DNA of 64,000 bases. Origin: Nonlabens arenilitoris. GTDB taxonomy: Bacteria > Bacteroidota > Bacteroidia > Flavobacteriales > Flavobacteriaceae. Under the pieces are notes generated by a model. That model had not been told where the DNA came from and searched no databases. It was given only the letters and a program-made list of their open reading frames with translations. This document shows, piece by piece, positions 24,763 to 47,082 of the stretch (the first letter of the stretch is position 1; every line of letters begins with the position of its first letter). The stretch spans positions 2,617,501 through 2,681,500 of the forward strand of contig NZ_MTPW01000001.1 in the NCBI RefSeq assembly GCF_002954765.1, given 5' to 3'. A program made the position numbers and the translations under genes.

Positions 24763-24803
24763 TAAAAAAAGGCTCTAGAATCAATTGATTGATTCTATGA
24801 GCC
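24763..24803 (-). terminator. hairpin repeat/terminator after the DoxX gene
   Basis: GGCTCTAGAATCAA pairs with TTGATTCTATGAGCC, and the minus strand runs into U. Related stems recur at 25951-25985 and 27312-27350, so it is also a repeat family. Confidence 0.75.
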
Positions 24804-24818
24804 CAGAATAATAGTGTC

Positions 24819-24874
24819 TCAAATTAACGAAGAAAAGTGTTTTTTTGTACTCAGTTCTTTGTTTTAAAGCAGTG
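24819..24874. repeat. short hairpin repeat, family B, copy 1
   Basis: AACGAAGAAAAGTG ... AGTTCTTTGTTT, with the arms AACGAAGAA and TTCTTTGTT. Related copies are at 26003-26043, 27363-27413 and 29566-29624, always just left of a cassette gene. Confidence 0.6.
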
Positions 24875-24922
24875 TTTTACTGACTTACGGCTTATGGATG
24901 AGAAAATTTTTTATATTTTATG

Positions 24923-25303
24923 TTATTCACCTTTTATAATAGGTTGGTATTTATTCCAATTGGTAACAATTACCCAGATATTAATTGCGAATAGTATTAG
25001 TGCGATTCCAATTCCTGATAAGTCGTGTACCAAATGATGAACAAATATACCTACCATAACTGGAAGAATTACTAATGCTCCCAATGCTCTTGTTTTAGGG
25101 ATAGCTATTAAAGCGCCTCCAATAATTTCAATAATTGCTACAAGCGGAAAAATCCATTTAATTGCTATAAATCCACCCATTATTTGCATCATTTCTTCAG
25201 ACATCTCGGGCATAGGTATATAGTTGAAGAATTTGTTAAGACCTGAATTAATCATCATTAATCCGAATAGGATACATAAAACTGTAAAAATTATTTTTTT
25301 CAT
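24923..25303 (-). CDS. DoxX family membrane protein
   Basis: The product is 126 residues with four predicted membrane helices, and the early MMINSGLNKFF stretch typical of DoxX proteins. Family members act in redox or quinone-linked processes at the membrane, but the function is loosely defined. It is divergent from an HxlR-type regulator at 25417, with three palindromes between them, so this pair is probably a regulator and its target. Confidence 0.8.
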   Translation of the reverse strand: MKKIIFTVLCILFGLMMINSGLNKFFNYIPMPEMSEEMMQIMGGFIAIKWIFPLVAIIEIIGGALIAIPKTRALGALVILPVMVGIFVHHLVHDLSGIGIALILFAINIWVIVTNWNKYQPIIKGE

Positions 25304-25348
25304 TTTTCAATTGTTGTTGTTAATAGTAGGGCAAATTTAACTATTATT

Positions 25349-25401
25349 GATTACTATTTGTAATCAGCTACCTATAGGTAATCAGTTACTTTAAGGTAAT
25401 C
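25349..25401. promoter_or_regulatory. three phased palindromes, candidate HxlR operators
   Basis: GATTAC-5-GTAATC (25349-25365), TACCTATAGGTA (25369-25380) and TTACTTTAAGGTAA (25387-25400) have centres about 18 bp apart. They sit in the divergent promoter region of DoxX and HxlR genes and share the half-site GGTAATC. Confidence 0.6.
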
Positions 25402-25403
25402 AA

Positions 25404-25411
25404 TAAATTTG
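25404..25411 (+). promoter_or_regulatory. -7 box for the HxlR-type regulator gene
   Basis: TAAATTTG directly abuts the third operator palindrome, so a bound regulator would block it. Confidence 0.6.
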
Positions 25412-25416
25412 TAGAT

Positions 25417-25935: not shown

Positions 25936-25950
25936 ATTGATAATAAAACA

Positions 25951-26043
25951 GGCTCTAGAATCAAACAAATGACTCTATGATCTTGTAATAATAAGATTTT
26001 AAGTTAATAAAGATATGTGTTGTTTTTTACTTCCGTTCTTTGA
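25951..26043. repeat. degenerate terminator-like hairpin plus family B repeat, copy 2
   Basis: GGCTCTAGAATCAA ... TGACTCTATGATC is followed by the AGTTAATAAAG ... GTTCTTTG element. It lies after the DUF6090 gene on the minus strand. Confidence 0.5.
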
Positions 26044-26075
26044 TAGTCTTTCGTTATTAATTTCTTATAATTAGT

Positions 26076-27311: not shown

Positions 27312-27413
27312 AAAAAAGACTCCAGAATCAACTGTTCGATTCTATGAGCCCAGATTAATAATGTCTCAAATTAACAAAGTAATGTGTTGTTTTTCACCTC
27401 AGTTCTTTGTGGT
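27312..27413. repeat. terminator-like hairpin plus family B repeat, copy 3
   Basis: GACTCCAGAATC pairs with GATTCTATGAGCC; then AACAAAG ... CTTTGT arms follow. The stem also fits a terminator for the MepB gene. Confidence 0.6.
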
Positions 27414-27433
27414 AAGTAATACTTTGCACAAAG

Positions 27434-27984: not shown

Positions 27985-28107
27985 AACGATCTAAATTACA
28001 AGTATTTGTGTGGTTGAGTTTTTAAATTTGTAAATACACATTAAACTGAAAATACGCGAGGATATACAGAAGTAGGTGAGTACAAGCAATTACTAATAAC
28101 TATAGTT
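27985..28107. repeat. attC-like hairpin site 1 (degenerate)
   Basis: Runs from AACGATC to CTATAGTTG. The inner stem GAAAATACGCGAGGATATAC is a decayed version of GAAAATCCGCGAGGATTTTC. Confidence 0.65.
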
Positions 28108-29432: not shown

Positions 29433-29565
29433 TGCTGTAGTGACGAATAAATATTTTAGAAAGTGATTATGAATTGAATCATGAAACACCATTTTAGAGC
29501 CTCTAAATTAAGCAATAAAAGAAGTAGTGATTATATTTTTTACTATAACGATATAGTTCAGCAGT

Positions 29566-29624
29566 AATAACAACTCAACTGAACGAAGAAGAGTGTTGGT
29601 TTTTACGTTAGTTCTTTGTTGTAA
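29566..29624. repeat. short hairpin repeat, family B, copy 4
   Basis: AACGAAGAAG ... AGTTCTTTGTT, followed by GTAACAC-GTTTTTTATTC. It thus ends in the same GTT-N7-GTT form as the long sites. Confidence 0.6.
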
Positions 29625-29632: not shown

Positions 29633-30118
29633 TTATTCATTTAGATTATCAATTATGTGTTCAGTCAGATAATCATTTTTTTTATCCAGAAATATGATTG
29701 TCGGTCCGTATACATTGTTAATTGCAAGAAGTCCATATTTCTCACTAAATAAAATCGGTCCAGTTGCGTCATCTGCATAATCTAATGTATCATAATAGTC
29801 AAACTCCAACCCTTGAAGTTCATCATTTGTGAAAGGCTTTTTGCTAGTTTTCACAAACTTGTCAAATCCGAATAGAAGAGAGTCAGATTGAATAATCTTT
29901 TTAATAAAAATAGTTTTTGATGTGTCTATTTGATTGACATATTTATAATTCAGAGAATTTTTCGTTTTGTTGAAAGTCAAATTGAACTTTTCATTTTTCG
30001 ATTCTGAACCAAAGAATATCGTTGCATTCATTTCAGATTTCCATTCCGTATTTTTTTCAGAACATCCGAAACAAAAAGTAAATATCAATATGTATTTTAA
30101 TAGGTTAGAACAAACCAT
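29633..30118 (-). CDS. small predicted lipoprotein, unknown
   Basis: The product is 161 residues. MVCSNLLKYILIFTFCFGCSE is a lipoprotein signal with the lipobox FCFGC. The rest is beta-rich with no known motif. Its right border keeps only the last 17 bases of a long hairpin, so a deletion has probably fused it to the next cassette. Confidence 0.65.
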   Translation of the reverse strand: MVCSNLLKYILIFTFCFGCSEKNTEWKSEMNATIFFGSESKNEKFNLTFNKTKNSLNYKYVNQIDTSKTIFIKKIIQSDSLLFGFDKFVKTSKKPFTNDELQGLEFDYYDTLDYADDATGPILFSEKYGLLAINNVYGPTIIFLDKKNDYLTEHIIDNLNE

Positions 30119-30134
30119 TAATTTTATACGGTGC
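30118..30134. repeat. remnant of an attC-like site
   Basis: TTAATTTTATACGGTGCTG is the right end of a standard site; the left 100 bases are missing. Confidence 0.6.
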
Positions 30135-30148
30135 TGTGCGTTCGTTTT

Positions 30149-30787
30149 TTAATTCAATTCATATTCAGTTAATTCCTCTTTTAGCTCTTTCGATGTCAAA
30201 AGAGGTTTCCTTTCCAAGTGAGCAAATCCATATCCATTTCCTTGAACAAAAGCAGGTAAATAATTTTTTCCAATTTCTAAAATTATTCCAACATCTATTA
30301 AGTTTGAAAATTCTCCGTTTACTTTTTTAGCTTCATCTGAATTCGGCTTGCATAATATTTGGTCGTGATAACTACTTGTAGTTCCATCGAGTAATTTTTC
30401 GATTTCACTTTTTCTTATTCTAGCTATTTTACTTAAAATTCTGTTCCATTTAGAGTCGATTTTTTCGACTTTAGCTGGTTCTGTTATAGAATCAGTAAAA
30501 TACAGAAAAGTCCGTACTCTTTTTATATCCTTTATTTGTTCGTTTTTAGTGATTATTTTTGCATTTTCAGTAGGATTGTATTTATTTTCAATTTCGAGAA
30601 TTTTGACCGTCATCGCTTCATCACCTTTATTTTGCGAACTAGCAATTTCAGGCACACATTCTAGTTCAATATAATAATTATCAAACTCAAATATGACTTT
30701 TACGAATTCAGTCCATATTCGTTTTGGTTCAGATTTTTTTAGTTTCTGAATTATCTTTTTTTCTATGATGTTAAATGTATATTCCAC
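30149..30787 (-). CDS. cassette protein of unknown function
   Basis: The product is 212 residues, starting at a GTG codon (MEYTFNIIEKKIIQKLKKSE). It is a mixed alpha/beta protein rich in lysine and glutamate, without signal peptide or membrane helix. No family is recognised. The cassette ends pair: GTGCGTT on the left at about 30132 and GACGCAC on the right at 30800. Confidence 0.65.
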   Translation of the reverse strand: MEYTFNIIEKKIIQKLKKSEPKRIWTEFVKVIFEFDNYYIELECVPEIASSQNKGDEAMTVKILEIENKYNPTENAKIITKNEQIKDIKRVRTFLYFTDSITEPAKVEKIDSKWNRILSKIARIRKSEIEKLLDGTTSSYHDQILCKPNSDEAKKVNGEFSNLIDVGIILEIGKNYLPAFVQGNGYGFAHLERKPLLTSKELKEELTEYELN

Positions 30788-30822
30788 TTTTTCTTAAATG
30801 ACGCACAACGGCAATGGACTAG

Positions 30823-30946
30823 AACGTGTTTGTGTATCGTTAGTAGCGTGGTTAAGCATCTAAATTAGCAAATAAAAACTGAATAGAAAATCCGCGAGGA
30901 TTTTCGTAAGCAGGCTAGAACCTAGCAATAAATTATATACATTGTT
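30823..30946. repeat. attC-like hairpin site 2
   Basis: AACG...GTT, 124 bp. The inner stem is GAAAATCCGCGAGGATTTTC and the outer arms are GTGTAT and ATATAC. It is preceded by GGCAATGGACTAG, the right end of the gene-less module, and followed by GTTAGGC, which equals the classical integron core. Confidence 0.8.
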
Positions 30947-31481
30947 AGGCGTTGTTATTTATTTTTCCAATGACTTTATCAATTGTGTCATTAGCTATTT
31001 TCATATCCAATCTAAAAAATTCTCGCCTTGGGTCAACTCTATAGGAATCTAAAATTTCGTGAATTTCTTTTTCCGCTATCTTACAATCTTTAACTGCCCA
31101 TTCTCGCATGACCGCAAATTTATCGGGAACACTTGTTTTTGATAGTTGTTTAGCTCTTTCTTCTGTTTTTTTTGTGGTTAAGCCTATTTTATATATATCT
31201 TTTTCGAATGTTGCATTTCTCATCACATAAATAAATCCAGCATTCTCTCCTTGAAACTCTTGTTGTTCTTGGTTATTAGAAATTATTAAATCGTTTGTAT
31301 TTGCTTGAAAAAAACTTTCTGTTTTATTTACCCAAGTTTTTCCTGTCACTTGTCTTCCTTTTTTGTCTGTACCGAATTCTTCTGGAGAAAGATTTTTCCA
31401 ATATCCACCATTTTCAATCTTAAAGTTTTCGTCTCTCAGAACGATTCTGTCTGCAGAAAATCTGTTTTCTCTATTTAACAT
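30945..31481 (-). CDS. GIY-YIG-like T5orf172 nuclease domain, C-terminal part of a split gene
   Basis: The product is 178 residues. GFIYVMRN, DIYKIGLTTKKTEERAKQL and RREFFRLD are the core of T5orf172/MUG113 domains, relatives of GIY-YIG nucleases. Upstream of the ATG the frame stays open back to about 31573 and reads INSPIKKRKYKTVESKYK and IRNRSLWM, continuing the protein encoded by the overlapping upstream frame. I read the two as one gene of about 550 codons broken at a run of seven A (31559-31565). The shown start is therefore only nominal. Confidence 0.75.
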   Translation of the reverse strand: MLNRENRFSADRIVLRDENFKIENGGYWKNLSPEEFGTDKKGRQVTGKTWVNKTESFFQANTNDLIISNNQEQQEFQGENAGFIYVMRNATFEKDIYKIGLTTKKTEERAKQLSKTSVPDKFAVMREWAVKDCKIAEKEIHEILDSYRVDPRREFFRLDMKIANDTIDKVIGKINNNA

Positions 31482-31555
31482 CCATAAAGAACGATTTCTA
31501 ATCTTATATTTTGATTCTACAGTTTTATATTTTCTTTTTTTAATAGGACTGTTGA

Positions 31556-32572
31556 TTATTTTTTTAATAATGTTTCATGTTCTTCTTCCTCAATATCATC
31601 TTCGAAAGTGTTAAAATAATATGGCAGATATAAAACTGCTTTTGCAAGTTCAAAAATTGAACTATAACCTTCAACTTCCGAAAGCATATTTTGAAAGGCT
31701 TCTTGAAAATCCTTTGATGTCCATTCTCCGTTTTTTACAAAACCAGTTATGTCATCGGTCAAAATTGAAAAAGAATTCCCTTCATCTTTTGCTACATATC
31801 TTGCGTCTAAAGTTTCAGTTTCTAAGTCAAGCCTACAAGCTATTAATACTTTCCATAAATTTTGATTGTCATTTAATCGAACAGCCTCTCTTTTTCTCTC
31901 TTCTGCTGGCTTTATGTTTTCTTTTCCAGGTATTCTACTTTTAGGTAATGGAACTAATTCTTTGGTTTTTTGTTCAGTATCAATTATTTCTCCTGTTAAA
32001 AAAAGCATTGTTACTTCATCTCCTCTCCTAAGTATTGAAACTCCTGCGATTACAAATTCACTACCTTCTTCTGTCTTAAATGTGATTTCGTTAATTTCTG
32101 AACCTACATTGTAATTATAAATCAGGTCCTCTTCAAAATTTCCTTTAATAAAATTAATGTTGAACTCAAAATCTCTTGAAGTATAGAAGTCTAAAAAATC
32201 ATAAAAAGAAATTAAGTAATCTTCTTCTTCAAGTAATTTCCATGAATTTACAGTTTTATCGAGGTCAAAAAATGCTTCCATTACATTGAACATAATTGGC
32301 ATTTTTCGATGTCCATATGTCCAAGACCGATGATTAAATTCTTTTAGAAAATGTCTTATTTCAAAATCCATATTCAGACCAACTCCATTTGAATCTTGAA
32401 GTTCTAGTGTATTGACTGCCTTTTTTAAATTATCACGCAATTTTTTTTTGAGAGCTGGATTTTCTCTCATATGTTGTTCGTGACGAGCTTTGACTTTTTT
32501 GAATTCTTCAGTCGATTCGTCCGGAACAGCATCTTTTGAATATTCTATTCTTCTTTTTATGTGCTCTTTCAT
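31556..32572 (-). CDS. N-terminal part of the split T5orf172 protein, unknown domain
   Basis: The product is 338 residues: an N-terminal coiled coil (to about 55), then an alpha/beta body ending in an acidic tail FEDDIEEEEHETLLKK. The stop follows AAAAAA TAA directly. A +1 shift in the A run would join it to the nuclease-domain frame downstream. No motif identifies the body alone. Confidence 0.7.
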   Translation of the reverse strand: MKEHIKRRIEYSKDAVPDESTEEFKKVKARHEQHMRENPALKKKLRDNLKKAVNTLELQDSNGVGLNMDFEIRHFLKEFNHRSWTYGHRKMPIMFNVMEAFFDLDKTVNSWKLLEEEDYLISFYDFLDFYTSRDFEFNINFIKGNFEEDLIYNYNVGSEINEITFKTEEGSEFVIAGVSILRRGDEVTMLFLTGEIIDTEQKTKELVPLPKSRIPGKENIKPAEERKREAVRLNDNQNLWKVLIACRLDLETETLDARYVAKDEGNSFSILTDDITGFVKNGEWTSKDFQEAFQNMLSEVEGYSSIFELAKAVLYLPYYFNTFEDDIEEEEHETLLKK

Positions 32573-32593
32573 ATGAGTGCTCTAATAACGCCT

Positions 32594-33007
32594 AATGGCA
32601 AAGGTATAAGGCGAGTGAGGCGTTTTAGCCGGTACGCGTTGACCTTTTGGTTGTTGATTAGTGGTTGTGAAGTTACAGATTTTTGGAATAATCACAGCCT
32701 CGCTATAAGCCTTTAAAACGTCTCAATCGCCATTATACAACGTTCTTGTTTGTTTCCTAGCGGCTGACGTGAATTGGGTAAGTACAAGCTGACTATTGCT
32801 CAAGAGGTTTTACAGCTTTGCCATTATTGTCTCCGACGAGCACAGCGAGAGGAAGACAGTTGAGTAGGTTGGGAGACTTGTGATTTATAATTACTATGGC
32901 AGGTTGATCTTTTGCAGCGTTATTGCAGTTCTATAGTTTCTAATCCCAAGTGAGTAATTATAAATTACAAAAGCGAAAACCTACGGCCGCAGGCAATGGA
33001 CTAGAAC
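32594..33007. repeat. long array module, copy 1 (414 bp)
   Basis: Starts AATGGCAAAGGTATAAGGCG and ends GGCAATGGACTAGAAC. Within it, AATGGCAAAG pairs with CTTTGCCATT about 240 bp later, and GTATAAGGCGA pairs with TCGCCATTATAC inside that. The second half is a separate hairpin built on TTGTGATTTATAATTACT and AGTAATTATAAATTACAA. No open frame. This copy and copy 2 have GTCTCCGACGAGCACAGCGA-type filler where others have CTAGTCC. Confidence 0.85.
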
Positions 33008-33128
33008 GGTTTTGTATAAGATTAGTTGCGTTGTTTAAGCAACTAATTTAGCAAATACAAGCCGAATAGAAAATCCGCGAGGATTTTCGTAAGTAGGCTT
33101 GCACTAGCAATTAATTTTATACGGTGTT
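33005..33128. repeat. attC-like hairpin site 3
   Basis: 124 bp. The outer arms GTATAAGATT/AATTTTATAC differ from other sites but still pair. The inner stem is GAAAATCCGCGAGGATTTTC. Confidence 0.8.
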
Positions 33129-33776: not shown

Positions 33777-33807
33777 TTAGTTTCGAGGTTTTTCTCAAAT
33801 TGCGTAC

Positions 33808-34221
33808 AATGGCAAAGGTATAAGGCGAGTGAGGCGTTTTAGCCGGTACGCGTAGACCTTTTGGTTGTTGGTTAATGGTTGTGAAGTTACAGAATTTTGG
33901 AATAATCACAGCCTCGCTATAAGCCTTTAAAACGTCTCAATCGCCATTATACAACGTTTTTGTTTGTTTCCTAGCGGCTGGCGTGAATTGGGTAAGTACA
34001 AGCTGACTATTGCTCAAGAGGTTTTACAGCTTTGCCATTATTGTCTCCGACGAGCACAGCGAGAGGAAGACAGTTGAGTAGGTTGGGAGACTTGTGATTT
34101 ATAATTACTAAAGCTGGTTGATCTTTTGCAGAGTTATTACAGTGCTATAGTTTCTAATCCCAAGAGCGTAATTATAAATTACAAAAGCGAAAACCTACGG
34201 CCGCAGGCAATGGACTAGAAC
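33808..34221. repeat. long array module, copy 2 (414 bp)
   Basis: Nearly identical to copy 1, including the GTCTCCGACG filler. It begins at AAT after GCGTAC. Confidence 0.85.
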
Positions 34222-37865: not shown

Positions 37866-38726
37866 TTACTTTATTAGCTCAGAAGCATCACTTTTATACT
37901 TTTCTAATGTATTTTTTAATGTTTCTGAAATTTGTTTTAATTCTTCTTTATGGTTGTTGTTTTGTAATTGGATTTCTCGAAATAGAACAGATGTATCTCT
38001 GAATTTTGGTAAATGACTAAGAACTGTTTGATTACTTGTATATTTTATTAGTACATTTTCAAGAACTTTTCTGATATATTCATAGAAGTAATTCAAATCC
38101 GATTCGTCTTTCATATTTTCATAGAACTCCTTTATATAAGAGTTTAGTTGGTCAATATCACTATCACTCAATAACTCTGGTTGTTTAGTAAACCAAGCAG
38201 TTAAATTCATTAATTCACTTACCTGTTCTTTGAATCTCTTTTTTCTTTCGTAGTCAAAATTTTGAGATTTTTCAACCATTGTCCAAAGTTGGTCTATCTG
38301 CATATTAAAATAATCTACTTCTGATGAAAGGTTATTAAAAGTTTTAATTTTACTTTCTCCGAAATTATTTACATAGGAAAGGAAATAGTTTTCATTTTTT
38401 AATAGCTTTTCTAAACGATTAAAACTTTTGTTTGGCGAAAATCTCAATAATTGAAAATCAAGATTATTTTTTTCATATTCTGAAACCATTTTATCTAAAT
38501 TCGATGCGACTGTTTCCACGTGACCAATAGATGATTTGACTAAATTAGAGAAGTGTCTAACTCGATTATTGTCATCATCTTTACTCTTCTTTTTTTCCTT
38601 TTTTCTGTCCCAAAGTATTGTAAGATAGAATACCAAAAGCGCAGTTCCTGTTCCAATTAATGCACTAATTATATCTTTCAAAAAATCTTGGTCAAAAAAT
38701 TCTTTTGCTGTTTCTATTTCTGACAT
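37866..38726 (-). CDS. membrane-anchored coiled-coil protein, unknown
   Basis: The product is 286 residues. One N-terminal membrane helix (ISALIGTGTALLVFYLTIL) is followed by a basic KKEKKKSKDDD stretch and long helices, ending in a coiled coil. No motif is recognised. It is in a two-gene cassette with the zinc-ribbon protein, and the outer ends GGCGGTA and TACCGCC pair. Confidence 0.7.
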   Translation of the reverse strand: MSEIETAKEFFDQDFLKDIISALIGTGTALLVFYLTILWDRKKEKKKSKDDDNNRVRHFSNLVKSSIGHVETVASNLDKMVSEYEKNNLDFQLLRFSPNKSFNRLEKLLKNENYFLSYVNNFGESKIKTFNNLSSEVDYFNMQIDQLWTMVEKSQNFDYERKKRFKEQVSELMNLTAWFTKQPELLSDSDIDQLNSYIKEFYENMKDESDLNYFYEYIRKVLENVLIKYTSNQTVLSHLPKFRDTSVLFREIQLQNNNHKEELKQISETLKNTLEKYKSDASELIK

Positions 38727-38764
38727 TTTATTGTGTTCAATGTTGTTTGTCTTAAATTACCGCC

Positions 38765-39152
38765 AATGGCAAAGGTATAAGGCGAGTGAGGCGTTTTAGC
38801 CGGTACGCGTAGACCTTTTGGTTGTTGGTTAATGGATGTGAAGTTACAGAATTTTGGAACAATCACAGCCTCGCTATAAGCCTTTAAAACGTCTCAATCG
38901 CCATTATACAACGTTCTTGTTTGTTTCCTAGCGGCTGGCGTGAATTGAGTAAGTACAAGAATACATTTGCTCAAGAGGTTTTACAGCTTTGCCATTCTAG
39001 TCCATTGAGTAGGTTGGGAGACTTGTGATTTATAATTACTATAGCTGGTTGGTCTTTTGCAGCGTTATTGCAGTGCTATAGTTTCTAATCCCAATAGAGT
39101 AATTATAAATTACAAAAGCGAAGACCTACGGCCGCAGGCAATGGACTAGAAC
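38765..39152. repeat. long array module, copy 4 (388 bp)
   Basis: Nearly identical to copies 3 and 5, with ATT-CTAGTCC-ATT and AAT-GGACTAG-AAC bounding its gene-less half. Confidence 0.88.
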
Positions 39153-39273
39153 GTTATTGTATATGGTTTGTTGCGTGGTTTAAGCACTAAATTTAGTAAA
39201 TAAAAACCGAATAGAAAATCCGCGAGGATTTTCGTAAGTAGACTAGAACTAGCAATAAATTATATACGGTGTT
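39150..39273. repeat. attC-like hairpin site 7
   Basis: 124 bp. Arms GTATATGGTTT and AAATTATATAC; inner GAAAATCCGCGAGGATTTTC. Followed by GTT-GCCCACA. Confidence 0.85.
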
Positions 39274-39281
39274 GCCCACAG

Positions 39282-40124
39282 TTATTTCTTGTTTTTCTTT
39301 ATTATTCTTAAAAGAGCGTGAATTGTCGCTAAATAATGATAAAACATCCAACTGTGCCAAATAGCAACATCGTATTTGCTTTTCTGCTTTTCATTATGAT
39401 GCCTTATTCCGTAATTATTTGCGATATTAAATAAATCCGATTCGTCTTTTGATTCTAAAAATTCTTTTGCTTTTGGTCTTAAATATTCTAGAACATCAAC
39501 TAATTCTCGTATTGAATCTTGTCTCTCGTCCATTGTTGACTTATATCTCCGAAATTTTAAAACTGCATTATTTATTTTAGTTTCAATATTTTCTTTGTCT
39601 GAAGTAGGAACATCGGCATCAAAGAGATGTGATAATCCTGAATCTGCTAATTGCAGAATTTCTCCATTTTTGGAAAGTTCAAAACCATTTGCGTAATCTT
39701 TTAAAATCGGATTAATTTGTTCTCTAAAATACAGTTGACCTTCTTTATCATTAAATTCCTCCCAATGATAACCGCAACCATTATGTTGATGATAAAAACC
39801 ATCTATTCCTTTAGAGCAGTAATCGTGTAGAAATTCTAAAACGTCAAATAAATCGTCTTCTGAGTAATTTTCTATTTGACTTGTTATTGGGAAAAGATTT
39901 TCCTTTTTTAAATGGATAAACATTACATCATCCAAGTCGTATCCTAATTCTCCCGCAACTTCTTCTTGGTCTTCGCAATAAAAACCGAAATATTTTTGAA
40001 AATATCCATCAGTTTCAATTTTCTTGTAAATTATTAGGAATAATTTTTTCAGCACTTTTAAGTCAATTACTTTATTCGGTATAATTTTACCTGTTCGTAC
40101 CGAAAAATAATCTCTCTTATTCAT
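39282..40124 (-). CDS. cytosolic cassette protein, unknown (HEPN-like helices possible)
   Basis: The product is 280 residues without signal or membrane helix. The C-terminal part (ERQDSIRELVDVLEYLRPKA, then IRHHNEKQ and HSWMFYHYLATIHALLRI) is all-helical, like C-terminal domains of abortive-infection proteins, but a clear RX4-6H HEPN motif is not seen. Cassette ends GCCCACA and TGTGGGC pair exactly. Confidence 0.65.
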   Translation of the reverse strand: MNKRDYFSVRTGKIIPNKVIDLKVLKKLFLIIYKKIETDGYFQKYFGFYCEDQEEVAGELGYDLDDVMFIHLKKENLFPITSQIENYSEDDLFDVLEFLHDYCSKGIDGFYHQHNGCGYHWEEFNDKEGQLYFREQINPILKDYANGFELSKNGEILQLADSGLSHLFDADVPTSDKENIETKINNAVLKFRRYKSTMDERQDSIRELVDVLEYLRPKAKEFLESKDESDLFNIANNYGIRHHNEKQKSKYDVAIWHSWMFYHYLATIHALLRIIKKNKK

Positions 40125-40145
40125 ACTGTTTTTTTAATTGTGGGC

Positions 40146-40269
40146 AACGTTGTTGTATAAGATTAGTTGCGTGTTTTAAGCACTAAAGTTAGCAAATAAA
40201 TCACAGATAGAAAGTCCGCGAGGACTTTCGTAAGTAGGCTAGAACTAGCAATGAATTATACACATTGTT
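40146..40269. repeat. attC-like hairpin site 8
   Basis: 124 bp. AACGTTGTTGTATAAGATT to AATTATACACATTGTT; inner GAAAGTCCGCGAGGACTTTC. Followed by GTT-ACCACAC. Confidence 0.85.
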
Positions 40270-40296
40270 ACCACACGTTTTTATTCCGTTGTTGTT

Positions 40297-40821
40297 TTAA
40301 TTCAGTTTTTTATTTTCTAAAATGTCAAATCCAAAAAGTCCATTCCGAGTTTCCAATTCAACGGTTTTATATTGATTCATTTTTTCAAAGTATTGGTGAT
40401 TAAAAACCAACTCTTTCTTAATTCCTTTGTAATTTACTGTAAATACAGGTTGTTGTTCTCCAATTCTGTATTTTGTTCCGCCACCTATAAAAGTCCGTTC
40501 AACAATTTTATAGGATTCCTTTTTGCTTTTTTTGTCAGCAAAGTGATAATTCATAAACATAAAAACAGAACACGCTATAAATCCAAATCCGATGAAATAG
40601 TTTATTAAAGCATATAGTTTTATGGTTTTGTAATGAAAGTATGTGTTTTTAAAATTCCGAAAATCAATTCCGTATGCTATGATTCCGAATACAATGATTA
40701 TTAACGCTGGAATAAACCAATTAATGATTGTATTCCGAAAAATCTGTATTTGAAAGTACATTGAAAATATTCCAATAAAGAAAATTGTAGGATAGAATAT
40801 TTGTCTTTGTTTTTGCGTCAT
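40297..40821 (-). CDS. small membrane protein, unknown
   Basis: The product is 174 residues with three membrane helices (about 8-27, 32-50 and 66-88), then a beta-rich soluble part with GGGTKYRIGEQQPVFTVNYK. The shape is like DUF3592-type proteins. An in-frame TTG lies two codons upstream; I prefer the ATG. Cassette ends ACCACAC and GTGTGGT pair. Confidence 0.65.
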   Translation of the reverse strand: MTQKQRQIFYPTIFFIGIFSMYFQIQIFRNTIINWFIPALIIIVFGIIAYGIDFRNFKNTYFHYKTIKLYALINYFIGFGFIACSVFMFMNYHFADKKSKKESYKIVERTFIGGGTKYRIGEQQPVFTVNYKGIKKELVFNHQYFEKMNQYKTVELETRNGLFGFDILENKKLN

Positions 40822-40836
40822 TCTCAAATGTGTGGT

Positions 40837-40960
40837 AACGGTCTAGTGTATGATTTCGTTGCGTGTTTAAGCACTAAAGTTAGCAAATAAATCACAGATA
40901 GAAAGTCCGAGAGGACTTTCGTAAGTAAGCTATAACTAGCAATGAATTATACACATTGTT
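40837..40960. repeat. attC-like hairpin site 9
   Basis: 124 bp. Arms GTGTATGATT and AATTATACAC; inner GAAAGTCCGAGAGGACTTTC. Followed by GTT-GCCATTA. Confidence 0.85.
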
Positions 40961-40972
40961 GCCATTAGTTTT

Positions 40973-41737
40973 TTATTCGTAATCATCATTATACCAACCT
41001 TTCCATTCTCCAGTTTCAGGATAAGTCAATTCGTAAATTCTCTTTTCAGAAGGACTTAAACTGTCCAAATATTTACTCAATTCCATTATATGAGTTTCTC
41101 CATAACCCATTCTCCAACCAATACTATATTTGTCAATTTCTGGATAAGCTAACCAAGGTGGTAAAATCGGATTTTTGAGAGTTTTAAATTCTCCAACTTC
41201 ATTTAGAATGTCTCTTGTTTCCATTAAAGCGTATCCGAGTAAATTCAGTCCATTCCAAAAGTATGGATTTTTAGCGTCTTCATTATTTTGAGCGAGTCCA
41301 ATTCCCCAAATATTGTCGACTGGACTTGCCTCAACTAAAATTCTGTCATTCGTATTTCTTAAAAATTCCGATAGCTTTGGGTTTTGACTAAACTTGTGAA
41401 AATTACCTCTTACAACTATTTCAAATCTATTTTCTTCCCAAATTCGTTGGTTAAAGTTCTTTACTTGTCTGCCAAGTTCTTTTACTTTTCCAGCTTTTGA
41501 GCTTTTGATTATTTGTTCATAAATGTCTTTGTCATTAAACAACAAAGCTTTTTCAGCCATCATATAATGTTCGGCTGTCAAGAATTTAATTCCGTTAACT
41601 TCAAATTCAGATTCATACCATTGACTGAAACAAGATTTCGTAATTCGGTCAGACTTTTGATGTCCCCAAAATAGAAGGTATTTCAGGTTTTCACCTGATT
41701 CAATTCGTTCAATTATTTTCTCGTTCGCGTAGTTCAT
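40973..41737 (-). CDS. NADAR family protein
   Basis: The product is 254 residues. LLFWGH, CFSQWYESEFEVNGIKFLTA, EHYMMAEKALLF and SPVDNIWGIGLA are the NADAR (YbiA-like) landmarks. Members are reported to hydrolyse glycosidic bonds, including removal of ADP-ribose from guanine in nucleic acids, and are paired with DarT-like toxins in some genomes. No DarT is seen here. The C-terminal 70 residues are an extra domain. Cassette ends GCCATTA and TAATGGC pair exactly. Confidence 0.9.
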   Translation of the reverse strand: MNYANEKIIERIESGENLKYLLFWGHQKSDRITKSCFSQWYESEFEVNGIKFLTAEHYMMAEKALLFNDKDIYEQIIKSSKAGKVKELGRQVKNFNQRIWEENRFEIVVRGNFHKFSQNPKLSEFLRNTNDRILVEASPVDNIWGIGLAQNNEDAKNPYFWNGLNLLGYALMETRDILNEVGEFKTLKNPILPPWLAYPEIDKYSIGWRMGYGETHIMELSKYLDSLSPSEKRIYELTYPETGEWKGWYNDDYE

Positions 41738-41750
41738 TCAAATTAATGGC

Positions 41751-41945
41751 AACGTGTACGTATATGATTTGTGGCGTTTTGGCGGCTAGCAATGGGGAGC
41801 GAATTGGCAGCAGCTTGCAAAGCTGCGTGAGAATCAGAAGCCGCGGTGAGCCGCACGACGTATTTTTCCGTCAAGCCAAGTTAATCTTTTTTGTAACAAT
41901 TGCAATTGACTTAACCAACTGAGCCATGAATTATATACGTTGTTG
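41751..41945. repeat. attC-like hairpin site 10, GC-rich variant
   Basis: 195 bp. Ends AACGTGTACGTATATGATT and AATTATATACGTTGTT pair well; the body differs (GGCAGCAGCTTGC AAAGCTGC stem, GCCGCGGTGAGCCGCACG). Confidence 0.75.
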
Positions 41946-41960
41946 GGTGTAGTGCCCGCT

Positions 41961-42419
41961 CTAATCGTAGATTTTTTTTCTTCCGCTAATTTTTGGAACT
42001 CTTCCTCCAGAAAATAGAATCCTCTTTCCGATGTCGATCCACTTATTATCATAATATTCACATTTGAAACTTGTGGCGAACCATTTTTTTCTTTGGGTAA
42101 TTCTTATTGGCCTCTTGATAAAAATATCAAGCGCTCTAATTATTTCTAGTTTTGTTTCATCTATCCATTCATCATCAACATCATTTGAAGAAGGATTAAA
42201 CATAATTTCATCATACCAAAAATAGGAGTCAGGTTCAGAATCCAATATTGCCAATAAGTTAGTAGTTGTCCAAAGCGATTCTACCCAAATTCTAAACTTA
42301 AATGATTTACAGTATAATGTTCGAAATTCTAAACATATCTCGTCGTTAGACTCAATCTCCTTAAATTCAATTTCGGGAAACTTTAGTTTTATCAGTCTAA
42401 TGAATTCAATATTCTTCAA
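41961..42419 (-). CDS. cassette protein of unknown function
   Basis: The product is 152 residues, acidic and tryptophan-rich in the middle, without signal or membrane helix. It starts MKNIEFIRLIKLKFPEIEF. No family recognised. Cassette ends GGGTGTA and TACACCC pair exactly, and the pairing continues for a few bases (GTTGGGTGTAGTGCC against GGCATTACACCCAAC). Confidence 0.65.
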   Translation of the reverse strand: MKNIEFIRLIKLKFPEIEFKEIESNDEICLEFRTLYCKSFKFRIWVESLWTTTNLLAILDSEPDSYFWYDEIMFNPSSNDVDDEWIDETKLEIIRALDIFIKRPIRITQRKKWFATSFKCEYYDNKWIDIGKRILFSGGRVPKISGRKKIYD

Positions 42420-42449
42420 GTAATAAATTTTGTTTCAGGCATTACACCC

Positions 42450-42574
42450 AACGTGTTTGTGTATGATTAGTTGCGTGTTTTAAGCACTAAAGTTAGCAAA
42501 TAAATCACAGATAAAAAGTCCGCGAGGACTTTCGTAAGTAGGCGAGAACCAAGCAATTAATTATACACGGTGTT
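42450..42574. repeat. attC-like hairpin site 11
   Basis: 125 bp. AACGTGTTTGTGTATGATT to AATTATACACGGTGTT; inner AAAAGTCCGCGAGGACTTTC. Followed by GTT-GTAACCA. Confidence 0.85.
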
Positions 42575-42583
42575 GTAACCAGT

Positions 42584-43180
42584 TTATTTTATAAAGTTCA
42601 AATTCAAAGCTAAAGAAAAATAAGAATTTTTCAAACTGTTGACTATTTCTTTATTTATGGCGTTAGTTATTCCAAAATTTCTGTACAACCTAACAGAAAA
42701 CGTTTGATTAAAATTATATCCAAGACCAATTATTACTCCAAAATCAAATTTTTTTACATTTCCAAGTAGCTCCTTTATAGTATTATCTTCATAAGCCCAA
42801 TCATAACCAACAACATTTAATCTGTAATTTAAATCTAAACCAGTTTTTAAATAAAACTTTTTTGTCAAATAATAATTAATTTTTAAAGGAATATTAATTA
42901 CTTGAGATTCAAAATCAAATCCATCTATTATATTATTATTTTTATCTCTAAACTTATTAAAATCTTTATTCCTCCAAGCATAGGTTTGTTTTATAAGAAA
43001 AAATATTTCTGGAGATATTGATAGTTTATCATTAATTTTTATTTCTGATGTTATTCCAAAAGAAACTCCTCCTTGATACTTGTCAAAATCATTCGCTGTT
43101 CCTTTTACTCCTAATCCAAAGTTTGATTGAGAAAAGACAGATAAACTTGATAATGTTAATATTAAAAATATTTGCTTCAT
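42584..43180 (-). CDS. outer-membrane beta-barrel family protein
   Basis: The product is 198 residues: signal peptide (MKQIFLILTLSSLSVFSQ), then alternating amphipathic strands ending YFSLALNLNFIK, a C-terminal strand fit for the outer membrane. It resembles PorT/OmpW-size barrels of about eight strands. Cassette ends GTAACCA and TGGTTAC pair. Confidence 0.8.
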   Translation of the reverse strand: MKQIFLILTLSSLSVFSQSNFGLGVKGTANDFDKYQGGVSFGITSEIKINDKLSISPEIFFLIKQTYAWRNKDFNKFRDKNNNIIDGFDFESQVINIPLKINYYLTKKFYLKTGLDLNYRLNVVGYDWAYEDNTIKELLGNVKKFDFGVIIGLGYNFNQTFSVRLYRNFGITNAINKEIVNSLKNSYFSLALNLNFIK

Positions 43181-43206
43181 TAAATTTTCATTTTTTAATT
43201 GGTTAC

Positions 43207-43433
43207 AACGCCACCTGTGTATGTCGTGTGAGGTTCATTTGCAAGTAAATAGCAACTATTCGGTATTTCCGAACAGTTCAAAGTAAACAACTAATTGAGG
43301 ATTAAGCCACCTCACAGGTAGACATAAATGAGCCTTATACGATATACATCGTGTTATGGATAGTTTAACTGCTCATCAACTGAAAAAACAAACACACAAC
43401 GCCCACTGAATAGGCTTATTTACAGGTGGCGTT
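43207..43433. repeat. attC-like hairpin site 12, long variant
   Basis: 227 bp. AACGCCACCTGT at the left pairs perfectly with ACAGGTGGCGTT at the right; inside are GTGAGG/CCTCAC and CTATTCGG/CCGAACAG stems. Followed by GTT-ACAGGAT. Confidence 0.75.
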
Positions 43434-43481
43434 ACAGGATAATTTAAGACTATGGGAGTCTTTAAAAACAATTACTAAATT

Positions 43482-43658
43482 ATGAGAAGTCAACAAGAAG
43501 TATTAGATGAAATAAGATGGCGTAAAACTGAGAAAAAAGGACTAGAGAAGTCTTTACAAAACCCAAGTGAGAATATAGATATAGACTATGTCAAAGGTCG
43601 CTTGCTTAATCTCAGTTTTGCTATAGCATGGTGTGAATGGTTTTTAAAAGCGGAATAG
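43482..43658 (+). CDS. 58-residue cassette protein read against the array
   Basis: ATG at 43482 to TAG at 43656-43658: MRSQQEVLDEIRWRKTEKKG, a lysine-rich middle with NPSENIDIDYVKGR, and a C-terminus NLSFAIAWCEWFLKAE. It is the only gene in the well-preserved part read on the plus strand. The cassette ends are exact: GTTACAGGATAATTTA on the left and TAAATTATCCTGTAAT on the right. No family recognised. Confidence 0.6.
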   Translation: MRSQQEVLDEIRWRKTEKKGLEKSLQNPSENIDIDYVKGRLLNLSFAIAWCEWFLKAE

Positions 43659-43684
43659 TCTGTGCCGCAGGTAAATTATCCTGT

Positions 43685-44072
43685 AATGGCAAAGGTATAA
43701 GGCGAGTGAGGCGTTTTAGCCGGTACGCGTAGACCTTTTGGTTGTTGGTTAATGGATGTGAAGTTACAGAATTTTGGAACAATCACAGCCTCGCTATAAG
43801 CCTTTAAAACGTCTCAATCGCCATTATACAACGTTCTTGTTTGTTTCCTAGCGGCTGGCGTGAATTGGGTAAGTACAAGAATACATTTGGTCAAGAGGTT
43901 TTACAGCTTTGCCATTCTAGTCCATTGAGTAGGTTGGGAGACTTGTGATTTATAATTACTAAAGCTGGTTGATCTTTTGCAGCGTTATTGCAGTGCTATA
44001 GTTTCTAATCCCAAGAGTGTAATTATAAATTACAAAAGCGAAAACCTACGGCCGCAGGCAATGGACTAGAAC
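43685..44072. repeat. long array module, copy 5 (388 bp)
   Basis: Almost identical to copies 3 and 4, with ATT-CTAGTCC-ATT and AAT-GGACTAG-AAC bounding its gene-less half. Confidence 0.88.
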
Positions 44073-44194
44073 GTTGTTGTGTATGATTGGTTGCGTGTTT
44101 CAAGCACTAAAATTAGCAAATAAATACTTAATAGAAAGTCCGCGAGGACTTTCGTAAATTGGCTAAAACCAAGCAATTAATTATACACGGTGTT
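44070..44194. repeat. attC-like hairpin site 13
   Basis: 125 bp. Arms GTGTATGATT and AATTATACAC; inner GAAAGTCCGCGAGGACTTTC. Followed by GTT-GTAAGCA. Confidence 0.85.
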
Positions 44195-44205
44195 GTAAGC
44201 AGTAT

Positions 44206-44913
44206 TTATTTCATTTCAAATGTTTTCCAAGTATCAATTATGTTATCTGTATTTTCAGATGTTATTTCTCTCATTCGGAATTTATTTCTCTCAATTTTTT
44301 CAATTCTCTGTTCTTTTTCAGGTTCTTCGTAGAAAACATCAAAAGTTACTCGACCTTTAATTTTCCATTTTTCTTGACTTAAACTAATTAATTCTAAACT
44401 TTTGAAACGACTTGAACAAGACGTATAATATTTTCCTAATTCAGTATTTCCATCATTATTAATGTCATCTACAGGGAAAAAATAATCAGTTTCCAAACAA
44501 GGTACATCAACTCTTATACGAGGAATTTTTTTATCAGTAAATATTGCAGAAGAACCATTTTCATAACTATTCTCTTTAGTGATAAATAGTTCTGGGATTA
44601 TTATAATTGAATCATTTATTCCGTCTTTATTTATGTCTCCTAACGATTTGATAATAGAATATCTTTCTAGGTTTTCTATTAATGTTGATGTTAAAACAAC
44701 AATTGTGGTATCATTTAAAGATTCTTTAATTCGTTCGTGAATTTTCGAATTAGAAAGTAATTGTGTTTTTTGTTTTGGATTTTCCCAATGGTCTCTCCAA
44801 CTATTAAATTCAGGAAATTCTGTTTTGGTTATACTTTCACTATCCAACTTGTTCTTACACGATAATATAATCATCAGAAGAAGTAAGATTGAGATAGAGA
44901 ATGTTTTTTTCAT
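44206..44913 (-). CDS. lipoprotein with calcium-type acidic repeats
   Basis: The product is 235 residues. MKKTFSISILLLLMIILSC is a lipoprotein signal. GDINKDGINDSII and DDINNDGNTELGKY look like FG-GAP/dockerin-style calcium loops. Function unknown. Cassette ends GTAAGCA and TGCTTAC pair. Confidence 0.7.
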   Translation of the reverse strand: MKKTFSISILLLLMIILSCKNKLDSESITKTEFPEFNSWRDHWENPKQKTQLLSNSKIHERIKESLNDTTIVVLTSTLIENLERYSIIKSLGDINKDGINDSIIIIPELFITKENSYENGSSAIFTDKKIPRIRVDVPCLETDYFFPVDDINNDGNTELGKYYTSCSSRFKSLELISLSQEKWKIKGRVTFDVFYEEPEKEQRIEKIERNKFRMREITSENTDNIIDTWKTFEMK

Positions 44914-44932
44914 ATTGCTTACAACGGTCTCG

Positions 44933-45045
44933 GCTATGAGTAGTTGCGTGGATTAGTACTTAACTTTACAAGTACACACCAAGTTGGAAATTCCGCAGGA
45001 ATTTCCAAAGTAGGCGAGGACAAGCAATTACTTATAGCCAATGTT
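44933..45045. repeat. attC-like hairpin site 14
   Basis: 113 bp. Arms GGCTATGAG and CTTATAGCC; inner GGAAATTCCGCAGGAATTTCC, which differs from other sites on both sides of the stem. It carries the stop codon of the next gene. Confidence 0.82.
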
Positions 45046-46362
45046 GGGCATAGTTATTTTTTTCGGCTCAATTTCTTTGCATATATATCCTTGGTTTTCG
45101 ACAAAACTTTCGGGTAAATTCATTAAATAATTCCCTCTCAATTGCCATAAAATCAAAGTTCCATCTTTTAGGAAAATCCACCTTGAAAAGCTCCTTTTAG
45201 AATTTCGATACTCTGTCAATTCGTAGAATATTGCATCTCCATACTTTCCTTTGTATTTATTTTTGTCAATTCCATTATCAGCTAAATCCTCCTTAAAACT
45301 CTTTTCCGCTTCTTTACTCAAAGATTGAGATTTAACCCAATGTATTTCTCCCAAGCAACTTTCACAACTCAAAGTGTATTTGTAGACAGGATTTTCTTCT
45401 AATAATTCTATTAATTTATCTTTTTTGTAAATGATGTTTTTAGGCGAGTTCAAAAGTTTGTTTGTTCCGAAAATTGTATAAAACTCTATGTTCTTTGAAA
45501 TAGTAGAGTCCTTTAAAGACATTTCAAGACAAGGTCTGCCCCAATTTCCTCCCCATTCAATTGAGGACATATCAGTAATCTCTGCTTTTTTAATTTCAAA
45601 TTCCTTCTCTAATAATTTAAATGTACTTGAGTATTTATTTCTGGTTTCTATGTAGTTCTCTTTATCCTCAATATATGCTCTGTAAATTTTCTTTATAAAA
45701 TGATGATTAAAGTTATTTCCACTTAATCTTTGTTTATTGCTTTGTACTATGTCAGGTAGTAAATCGGAAATTATTTCTGATACTCTATGATTATAGACTT
45801 TCTGCCCTTTAAAATTCCAAGGAAGCATATAAGGATATTGTCCATTTGTTGATAATGATAATGTATCATTTTCTTTGATTAAATGAACATAAACTACGGG
45901 ATAGTCATCAGTCCAATGTGAACCTTGAATTGTCCAAGCTACTCGATTAGCTTTTTTAATATCTTTAATTGTATTTATTGCGATTGAATATATCTCTTTT
46001 GTAGCCTTTCTATCATTTTTATATTCAATCCAAAGTTGTTCTGCATTTTGGTTAAGCCACAATGAATCCTTGCCAAAGAAACTCAAAGGATTATCTCTTG
46101 AATCTGAAGGATTGTTTAGTAAATTGATAAGTTCAGAGATTAATTTAGAATCAACTTTTTTAAATATCGAATCAGGTTTATTAATAGCTGTGAGCAATAA
46201 ATCATCTTTTTTGACTTGATATTTATTGTCAAAATGTGACCATCCACCATATGCATCTCCTATCACTATTTTGTCCCAATCATTAATTTCATTCTTTTCC
46301 TGTCCAATTGCCATTTGGATTCCAAAAAGAAAGGTTAATATGATTGAAATTGGTTTGTTCAT
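45028..46362 (-). CDS. secreted protein of unknown function
   Basis: The product is about 444 residues. MNKPISIILTFLFGIQMAIGQ is a signal peptide; I start at this ATG, not the TTG four codons upstream. The body is alpha/beta with two cysteines (CESCLG) and no known motif. The last codons (MPNIGYK and the stop) are encoded by the GTT-N7 core and the right arm of the recombination-type site. Ends GGGCATA and TATGCCC pair. Confidence 0.68.
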   Translation of the reverse strand: MNKPISIILTFLFGIQMAIGQEKNEINDWDKIVIGDAYGGWSHFDNKYQVKKDDLLLTAINKPDSIFKKVDSKLISELINLLNNPSDSRDNPLSFFGKDSLWLNQNAEQLWIEYKNDRKATKEIYSIAINTIKDIKKANRVAWTIQGSHWTDDYPVVYVHLIKENDTLSLSTNGQYPYMLPWNFKGQKVYNHRVSEIISDLLPDIVQSNKQRLSGNNFNHHFIKKIYRAYIEDKENYIETRNKYSSTFKLLEKEFEIKKAEITDMSSIEWGGNWGRPCLEMSLKDSTISKNIEFYTIFGTNKLLNSPKNIIYKKDKLIELLEENPVYKYTLSCESCLGEIHWVKSQSLSKEAEKSFKEDLADNGIDKNKYKGKYGDAIFYELTEYRNSKRSFSRWIFLKDGTLILWQLRGNYLMNLPESFVENQGYICKEIEPKKITMPNIGYK

Positions 46363-46372
46363 AATTATGCCC

Positions 46373-46495
46373 AACGGTTTTGTGTATGATTAGTGGCGTG
46401 TTTAAGCACCTAATTTAGCAAATACAAACCGAATAGAAAATCCGCGAGGATTTTCGTAAGTAGGAGATTACTAGCCATTAATTATACACGTTGTT
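46373..46495. repeat. attC-like hairpin site 15
   Basis: 123 bp. Arms GTGTATGATT and AATTATACAC; inner GAAAATCCGCGAGGATTTTC. Followed by GTT-GCCACAC. Confidence 0.85.
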
Positions 46496-47039
46496 GCCAC
46501 ACGTTTTTATTTATTTCGTAACAAATACATTTTTCGTATTCGGGATATTCTTTCAATTTCGGATGTTTAAATTCTCCGATTTTTTCCATTCCGATTTTTT
46601 TCATCACGTTTTCCGATTTAGAATTTTTCTCTGTACACGTGGAAATGATTTTATCTAAATTCAGTTCATTAAATGCAAATTCAAGACATTTTTTTGCGCC
46701 TTCGGTTGCATATCCTTTTCCCCAAGCACTTTTTTTTAATCGCCAACCAATGTCAACAGCAGGTGTAAAGTCAGTTTTATATTCTTGAAATGCCAAACCA
46801 ATAAATCCGATTAATTCTCCACTTTCTAAAATTTCCGTTGCGAAGTAATTGAATCCATTTTTTGTATAGTGATTTTTAAGTCGGTCGATAAATTCCGCTG
46901 TTTCCTTTTCTGTTAATGGTTTTGGGAAATGTTCCATCACTTCCAAATCCGCATTTATTATCGCAAATTCGGTCAAATCAGTTTCGTCCCAATTGCGAAA
47001 TCCAAGTCTTTCAGATTTAAAAATGTATTCTTTTTTCAA
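46482..47039 (-). CDS. GNAT N-acetyltransferase (RimJ/RimL-like)
   Basis: The product is 185 residues. ERLGFRNWDETD at the start, GWRLKKSAWGKGYATEGAKK as the acetyl-CoA loop and ENVMKKIGM near the end are typical. The acceptor is unknown; the family modifies ribosomal proteins or small amines. It starts at TTG because no in-frame ATG lies near. The last residues VWQQRV and the stop come from the neighbouring hairpin site, so recombination would change its C-terminus. It is the first gene of the array as transcribed. Confidence 0.85.
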   Translation of the reverse strand: MKKEYIFKSERLGFRNWDETDLTEFAIINADLEVMEHFPKPLTEKETAEFIDRLKNHYTKNGFNYFATEILESGELIGFIGLAFQEYKTDFTPAVDIGWRLKKSAWGKGYATEGAKKCLEFAFNELNLDKIISTCTEKNSKSENVMKKIGMEKIGEFKHPKLKEYPEYEKCICYEINKNVWQQRV

Positions 47040-47082
47040 TTTCAGCGTAATTTTCTCAAATGTGTGGCAACGTTAGTAAATA

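Follow-up and report, generated by a model that had tools for sequence, protein, structure and literature searches.

An integron-type cassette array in the Nonlabens chromosome and its candidate integrase, an IntI-like recombinase without the IntI-specific domain

Introduction

How do fifteen small gene cassettes come to stand in a row in a bacterial chromosome with no integrase gene beside them? The question is raised by a stretch of 64,000 nucleotides of Nonlabens arenilitoris (hereafter the window; positions 2,617,501-2,681,500 of the main contig, in a genome of 3.32 Mb), which carries an integron-type cassette array. We argue, from sequence comparison, that this array is very probably one of two in the genome and is recombined by a family of IntI-like tyrosine recombinases without the IntI-specific domain.

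In the available text of PMC9668308, the additional domain of IntI is the defining mark of integron integrases and is needed for recombination in classical integrons, and in that of PMC2426708 it is the feature by which IntI is selected. A survey that combined IntI with a published attC model names, in the accessible part of PMC9024848, a single complete integron in Bacteroidetes, that of Salinibacter, the earlier finds being elements with an integrase alone. No report of a flavobacterial cassette system was found in the open PMC literature, a scope that leaves preprints and closed journals aside.

Hairpin sites and paired cassette ends

Fourteen complete hairpin sites bounded by AAC and GTT lie on the minus strand, the strand of the genes, from position 46495 to 30823, each 123-227 bp long; two incomplete ones follow, truncated at about 30137-30106 and decayed at 28107-27985 (Table 1). 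The sites delimit 15 gene cassettes together with D1, a non-coding cassette (385-411 bp) present in five complete copies and one that is cut. An earlier interpretation made from the letters alone (the sequence-only reading) had placed at least fifteen cassettes between AAC/GTT hairpins from 30.1 to 47.07 kb, and this stands: 14 complete sites and one truncated site bound the 15 gene cassettes, in an arrangement that permutation places beyond chance. The segment from 24.8 to 30 kb, which it had counted into the array, is not part of a clean one: it contains a single decayed site and repeats of a different family.

The permutation concerned the two ends of each cassette, which are complementary from the TT inwards. 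Exactly 9 nt pair (TT and seven more) in 12 of the 14 cassettes tested; of the other two, one has a run of 15 nt and the other of 4 nt. The run averages 9.1 between a cassette's own ends against 2.8 between ends of different cassettes (maximum 6), and none of 100,000 permutations reached the observed complementarity. The variable seven bases are unlike between most cassettes. Integrase loci of genomes from other genera behave likewise: of 90 pairs of neighbouring sites, 84 entered the count (two with wrong edges and four more than 3.5 kb apart were left out, as was the single site of locus L054), and their cassettes have runs of 9 nt in 47 cases, 8 nt in 30 and fewer in 7, with a run of 9 reached by 0.8% of 6972 non-own pairs. 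At position 10, every one of the 47 nine-nt runs has A opposite G, a combination that gives a G.T wobble solely on the strand opposite the genes.

The hairpins themselves also favour that strand. Eleven window sites with a common terminal structure were aligned over 126 columns, and their predicted consensus fold on the plus strand has 28 pairs, with compensatory changes at seven. Two pairs of the fold are G.U, one in 10 and the other in all 11 sequences, and at these positions the gene strand has A.C mismatches. By DNA folding, the strand opposite the genes is predicted to be the more stable in 13 of 14 sites taken in circle form (mean -4.1 kcal/mol) and in 14 of 15 taken in array form (mean -2.8 kcal), whereas 35% of 300 control windows favour the same strand (mean +0.34 kcal).

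A covariance model of the eleven sites, a custom model of the kind that the sequence-only reading had proposed, detects 25 sites in the genome of 3.3 Mb, 11 of them matches by construction, with 150 of 2236 first-look candidates scored. Twelve lie in the window, twelve in a second array and one alone. The lone site (L007, about 5366-5489; G000:C1:2765365-2765488) is outside both arrays and directly behind a gene similar to one past the distal end of the second array. Rfam families gave no match at gathering scores in a search of the window.

A candidate integrase beside a second array

The sequence-only reading saw no integrase, which is right for the window and wrong for the genome. Five PF00589 matches occur in the genome, none inside the window, and the genome-wide recombinase search that it had suggested located an IntI-like tyrosine recombinase gene 0.5 Mb from the window array, beside the second array (L006) and divergent from it. 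Its idea of an integron-type array with the recombinase elsewhere thus holds as to the gene, which stands beside an array of the same kind; action in trans would be a further step.

The gene encodes 276 aa, 98% identical to the N. ulvanivorans PLR integrase, and what we take to be the catalytic residues, assigned by motif, are present. An attI beside the integrase, as expected of integrons, is found here: that of the second array is similar to the window attI, with its G/TT (the slash marks the break) 107 bp from the integrase start. In the window the corresponding place holds the beginning of a lost gene, whose first 13 bases (MQTF) match the intact second-array gene (MQTFYDFKK) before a stop.

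One explanation is that this is an ordinary integron with a true IntI and ordinary attC sites, in which annotation alone differs. The attI, the attC-like hairpins, the G/TT breaks, the folding bias and the mostly one-way cassettes all match it. TIGR02249, the integron integrase family, is the best NCBIfam match of the protein at 190.7 bits, and a tree joins the domain-less integrases with IntI, apart from XerC/XerD, with support 100/99. The score is nevertheless under the curated cut-off of 265. In a sample of 199 genomes of the family Flavobacteriaceae, TIGR02249 matches at E <= 1e-30 in 87 and IntI above the cut-off occurs in none. The IntI-specific insertion of about 42 residues, the additional domain around patch III, is absent: the stretch between its landmarks measures 41-42 residues in all 31 integrases of this kind that were compared and 83 in all 12 true IntI taken from the same phylum, and the alignment with PDB 2a3v has a gap there. 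In the tree, moreover, the IntI rows form a clade of their own (100/100). We regard an ordinary integron as somewhat unlikely. Sites, breakpoints and attI fit but the IntI domain is missing, and the system is therefore better described as an integron-like variant than as a simple member. An integrase lacking the domain used to define IntI would be passed over, with its many relatives, by a domain-based search.

In a predicted model of the N. ulvanivorans integrase, residues 184-199 form a loop without a helix (pLDDT 88.5, pTM 0.65). VIA-align places XerA 5hxy at the top for this model (Z 22.9, rmsd 14.0, 257 aligned), followed by XerH 5jjv (Z 20.5; 4.8, 255) and IntI4 2a3v (Z 20.3; 5.9, 270), which are tied. 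NF040815 (XerA_Arch) scores the protein of this genome at 188 bits. XerC and XerD are separate genes in the same genomes.

Breakpoints and exchange of cassettes

The sequence-only reading had called for a comparison of breakpoints between related strains. Made between the two arrays of this genome and with three sister species, it gives whole-cassette differences with breaks at G/TT, or at A/TT behind D1, the crossover point and unit of exchange expected of integrons, as judged from breakpoints. The NADAR cassette has one copy in the window and two in the second array (one 100% identical over 921 bp, the other 98-99%), with different neighbours each time, and identity stops at most a few bases from CG/TT. 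Cassette 4 follows an A (behind D1) in the window and a G in the second array, and is otherwise 99.8% identical over 485 bp. That cassettes are nearly identical in both arrays suggests recent exchange.

The proximal end of the window array tells the same. A flank gene is 97% identical in the three sister species (G205, G216 and G217), and homology running from it at about 95.5% ends at window positions 47068, 47068 and 47065, which puts the break only a few bases beyond the G/TT of the attI (between 47071 and 47070). The first cassette at this conserved attI differs in all four species. Sixteen further genomes of the genus with the same flank gene showed no site in the 20 kb stretch examined.

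Could the units be a family of transposon-like repeats, each with inverted ends of its own, that owe their movement to a transposase or to homologous recombination between repeats rather than to site-specific recombination? The repeats are indeed long and resemble one another, and five complete D1 copies in one array mean that homologous recombination could delete or duplicate units. No transposase, however, is among the Pfam matches of the 20 window open reading frames (ORFs) scanned; the sequence-only reading had named a transposase as a finding that would overturn it. The inverted ends are cassette-specific rather than family-wide, so that no terminal repeat is shared; the gene cassettes that recur break at one base step whatever their neighbours; and a tyrosine recombinase family is linked to the array starts, with near-constant polarity. 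Such repeats are a highly improbable explanation.

A second alternative concerns the present state of the window array, which has the make-up of a CALIN (cluster of attC sites lacking integron-integrases): a cluster of sites, no integrase nearby and only a short remnant. We consider it unlikely that it is a dead CALIN that no longer recombines. Against it stand the near-identical cassettes in an integrase-bearing array, suggestive of recent exchange, and the conserved attI, at which each of the four species has a first cassette of its own; in its favour are the reduction of the local integrase gene to four matching codons and a stop, the decay of the distal 24.8-30 kb, and the arrays of G205 and G217, which stand without an integrase at E <= 1e-50. 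Similar integrase-gene remnants are held by the sister loci L085, L086 and L087. At the second-array locus of G205 and G217, flank homology stops within the integrase gene, about 40 bases from its 3' end, and integrases therefore appear to have been lost while arrays remain. In G205 (L219, 237-1190), a Fic-family gene (PF02661) occupies the integrase place and is followed by a D1 remnant.

Linkage of integrases and arrays in the family

Among the 199 family genomes, integrase relatives (E <= 1e-50) occur in 99 and sites (covariance model, E <= 0.001) in 166; the scans scored at most 17 candidates per genome here and at most 10 in the phylum sample described below. A site lies within about 10 kb of 29 of 40 family integrases but of only 4 of 40 other tyrosine recombinases (Fisher p = 1.4e-8). 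The 40 integrase loci were taken down the E-value list, skipping loci already used and several that started a few hundred bases or less from a contig end or stood lower down; the first 20 loci, partly picked after sites were seen (18 of 20 with sites), are excluded from this count. The controls comprise 20 XerC/XerD and 20 other tyrosine recombinases from 15 genomes, the XerC/XerD set having a site near 1 of its 20 loci, and the stretch around one control (L174) includes in addition an integrase of similar type.

Where integrase and sites occur together, their arrangement is regular. Of the 103 sites, 100 have cassettes directed away from the integrase (28 of 29 loci), and the nearest site has a median distance of 1154 bp. 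The integrase is oriented with the cassettes at 23 loci and against them at 6. We scanned 39 of 47 site-bearing loci for a putative attI, leaving out eight whose nearest site is more than about 3 kb away. The start of the integrase-nearest cassette, as predicted from that cassette's site, was located at 36 of the 39, preceded by G in 36 of 36, and lies 48-400 bp from the integrase in 32 of the 39; four of the 36 (774-1461 bp) resemble joints in the interior of an array, and in one of the 36 the match is 7 bases long. Of the same-direction loci with a near start, 14 of 24 end in a motif like TATAACAAG/TT (read by eye) and ten end otherwise, while four divergent loci with a short integrase have G/TT 96-118 bp from it.

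Proposed mechanism and weight of the evidence

The findings can be brought together in the following scheme. A cassette would be the mobile unit, circular when free, and its site would fold into a hairpin as the strand opposite the genes. At the hairpin base there would be about 10 pairs, made of AAC/GTT and seven cassette-specific pairs, and then the conserved G.T wobble; above it an asymmetric unpaired spacer would lead to an arm of about 16 pairs. The 7-nt pairing would close the base in the circular cassette. The 276-aa recombinase is proposed to cut the folded opposite strand between G and TT and to join cassettes to attI or to each other; it would catalyse the reaction on a circular single-stranded substrate. 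The window array, which no longer has an integrase copy of its own but retains attI and four codons, would probably be served in trans.

Several observations weigh against this scheme. Many array-bearing genomes lack an integrase at the cut-off (99 against 166 of 199 genomes), the sister species G205 and G217 among them, and no site is present within 10 kb of 11 of the 40 integrases. For five of the 11 a contig end is no more than about 900 bases away, which is not the case for the other six (L105, L106, L112, L131, L135 and L141). Four of the 40 control recombinases do have a site nearby. Because the additional domain is described as needed in classical integrons (in the available text of PMC9668308), its absence counts against simple membership, and the predicted fold is equally near XerH and IntI4, with XerA first. 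Within the window, the ends of cassette 13 do not pair, and the gene strand of site S4 is predicted to fold better.

As its alternative, the sequence-only reading had named another hairpin-based system of the Bacteroidota that would follow the logic of integrons. The integrase without the IntI domain and the longer cassette-specific base pairing agree with this, and the alternative is in part correct as well. A broader reading, which we hold to be evenly balanced, is that most species of the Flavobacteriaceae carry an integron lineage particular to the family. Its integrases would either have lost the IntI domain or have lacked it from the start, and structure-guided recombination of cassettes would be independent of it. 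The enzymes would then be sister or ancestral to IntI, perhaps, and the 7-nt ends would act as a cassette-specific address by which each attC closes its fold in the free circle.

If the preferred reading of two arrays served by a domain-less IntI-like family is correct, most species of one large family carry integrons whose integrase would escape an IntI-domain criterion. Their cargo would include candidate phage-defence genes, and some would be on plasmids. Two questions would become testable, namely the role of the IntI-specific domain and the origin of integrons from Xer-type recombinases.

Cargo and organization of the window array

The features of the window array are collected in Table 1. 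No Pfam match was obtained for 8 of the 20 window ORFs scanned; the matches named include a GNAT acetyltransferase, an outer-membrane barrel, NADAR, WG repeats, FRG and T5orf172. A scan of ten ORFs with PADLOC-DB gave four clear candidate-defence matches (PDC-M42C, PDC-S32, PDC-S15 and PDC-S57) and one very weak match to LeoA. Cassette 4 is unlike the other gene cassettes, its sole ORF being small and read against the array direction.

The decayed distal part encodes a beta-lactamase-family protein (PF00144) and a MepB-like protein (Pfam). It also holds a second repeat family, CAAAGAACT..., at 24765-24868, 25945-26048, 27312-27415 and 29565-29624, with a terminator-like hairpin in three copies. 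These repeats may mark cassette boundaries of an older or another type.

D1 is the commonest unit. Besides the window copies there are five in the second array (starts in L006 at 5084, 11707, 13028, 14149 and 16068) and at least 8 in the sister species G205 (8 starts in the L085 stretch). All six window copies are preceded by G; D1 ends in CCA/TT, and the next cassette opens with that TT. The longest open frame is 46 residues in the copy tested, and D1 is therefore taken as non-coding, the idea of a coding unit having been dropped. A role as promoter carrier was likewise dropped, as a Bacteroidetes-type promoter pattern matched once in the array against 0.4 times in shuffles.

Table 1. Features of the cassette array in the window, listed from the attI end
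Feature	Positions	Strand	Remarks
Remnant of lost integrase gene	47177-47197	+	reads MQTFSF and stop; matches intact second-array gene, then stop
attI	47071-47176	-	ends ...GTTTGTATTTACTAACG/TT, insertion point of cassette 1; conserved in three sister species
Cassette 1	46494-47070	-	GNAT acetyltransferase (ORF 46482-47039); ends TTGCCACAC and GTGTGGCAA; end pairing, Pfam
attC-like site S1	46373-46495	-	
Cassette 2	45044-46374	-	448 aa ORF, no Pfam match
attC-like site S2	44923-45045	-	
Cassette 3	44193-44924	-	235 aa ORF, no Pfam match
attC-like site S3	44070-44194	-	
D1, copy 1	43687-44071	-	non-coding; ends CCA/TT
Cassette 4	43432-43686	-	15-nt complementary ends; second copy in second array (L006), 99.8%
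Site S4	43207-43433	-	227 bp, different hairpin type
Cassette 5	42573-43208	-	outer-membrane beta-barrel protein; Pfam
attC-like site S5	42450-42574	-	
Cassette 6	41943-42451	-	152 aa ORF, no Pfam match
attC-like site S6	41751-41944	-	long terminal structure
Cassette 7	40959-41752	-	NADAR protein; two more copies in second array (L006)
attC-like site S7	40837-40960	-	
Cassette 8	40268-40838	-	176 aa ORF, no Pfam match
attC-like site S8	40146-40269	-	
Cassette 9	39272-40147	-	280 aa, PDC-S32-like; AbiJ_NTD4 match weak, below cut-off
attC-like site S9	39150-39273	-	
D1, copy 2	38767-39151	-	non-coding
Cassette 10	37413-38766	-	two ORFs: 286 aa; 144 aa with zinc ribbon
attC-like site S10	37228-37414	-	long terminal structure
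Cassette 11	35890-37229	-	WG-repeat protein; Pfam
attC-like site S11	35768-35891	-	
D1, copy 3	35385-35769	-	non-coding
Cassette 12	34340-35384	-	FRG-domain protein (PDC-S15)
attC-like site S12	34219-34341	-	
D1, copy 4	33810-34220	-	non-coding; 411 bp variant
Cassette 13	33127-33809	-	219 aa ORF; ends pair poorly (run 4)
attC-like site S13	33005-33128	-	
D1, copy 5	32596-33006	-	non-coding; 411 bp variant
Cassette 14	30945-32595	-	ORFs of 338 aa and 178 aa, the latter with a T5orf172 domain (PDC-S57)
attC-like site S14	30823-30946	-	
D1, cut copy	30810-30824	-	before cassette 15
Cassette 15	30137-30808	-	212 aa ORF; ends GTTGTGCGT and ACGCACAGC
Truncated site S15	30106-30137	-	fused to next gene
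Decayed site S16	27985-28107	-	degraded distal part

Distribution beyond the family and on plasmids

In a sample of 345 genomes of the phylum, sites at E <= 1e-4 occur in 49, and IntI above the cut-off occurs in 93, only one of which belongs to the class of the window. Among 20 site-bearing loci outside the family, a true IntI is near one and a domain-less integrase is near one. The idea that sites of other classes stand beside a true IntI was not used: its one case, L197 (G282, 10149-12250), outside the class, has a site of flavobacterial type that lacks AAC and lies about 1 kb away from a true IntI gene, perhaps through the capture of a foreign cassette.

Integrase relatives on plasmids number 353 records at E <= 1e-30, all below 60% identity, and two of the four plasmid stretches examined carry sites. 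On a Chryseobacterium plasmid (L223, NZ_CP041688.1, 11770-15015), an attI-like motif, TATAAACAAG/TT, and two weak sites stand behind an integrase, possibly a mobile version of the system. A Flagellimonas marinaquae plasmid (L221, NZ_CP092416.1, 9899-10574) has a dihydrofolate-reductase-family gene in a cassette whose ends are complementary and whose site is strong (124 bits); erm(F) and a recombinase annotated as integron integrase are nearby.

Comparison with known systems

Classical integrons, such as the chromosomal ones of Vibrio, share with the Nonlabens arrays cassettes that run in the same direction, an attI by a tyrosine recombinase, a hairpin with an unpaired spacer, breaks at G/TT, a folding bias towards the opposite strand, and hypervariable cargo that is often of unknown function. 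The core of a classical site is the R box, RYYYAAC/GTTRRRY, whereas at the base of a Nonlabens site AAC/GTT is extended by seven cassette-specific pairs and a conserved wobble. Unlike in classical integrons, the Nonlabens integrase has no IntI-specific additional domain, and the system is common in a family in which IntI exceeds the cut-off in none of the sampled genomes.

XerA, XerH, XerC and XerD resemble the Nonlabens integrase in length and fold, and XerC/XerD also have no IntI insertion; yet XerC/XerD branch separately on the tree and seldom have sites nearby. Integrons of Treponema offer a parallel in layout. Their intI is transcribed towards attI, an arrangement termed atypical in the available text of PMC3607928, and the integrase likewise runs toward the cassettes in 23 of 29 loci of the present family, with attI behind its 3' end. 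The Nonlabens integrase differs from Treponema in running against its own array. CALINs, finally, have no intact integrase gene, as is true of the window array; unlike them, the window array keeps an attI and the start of an integrase gene, and has an integrase-bearing twin in the same genome.

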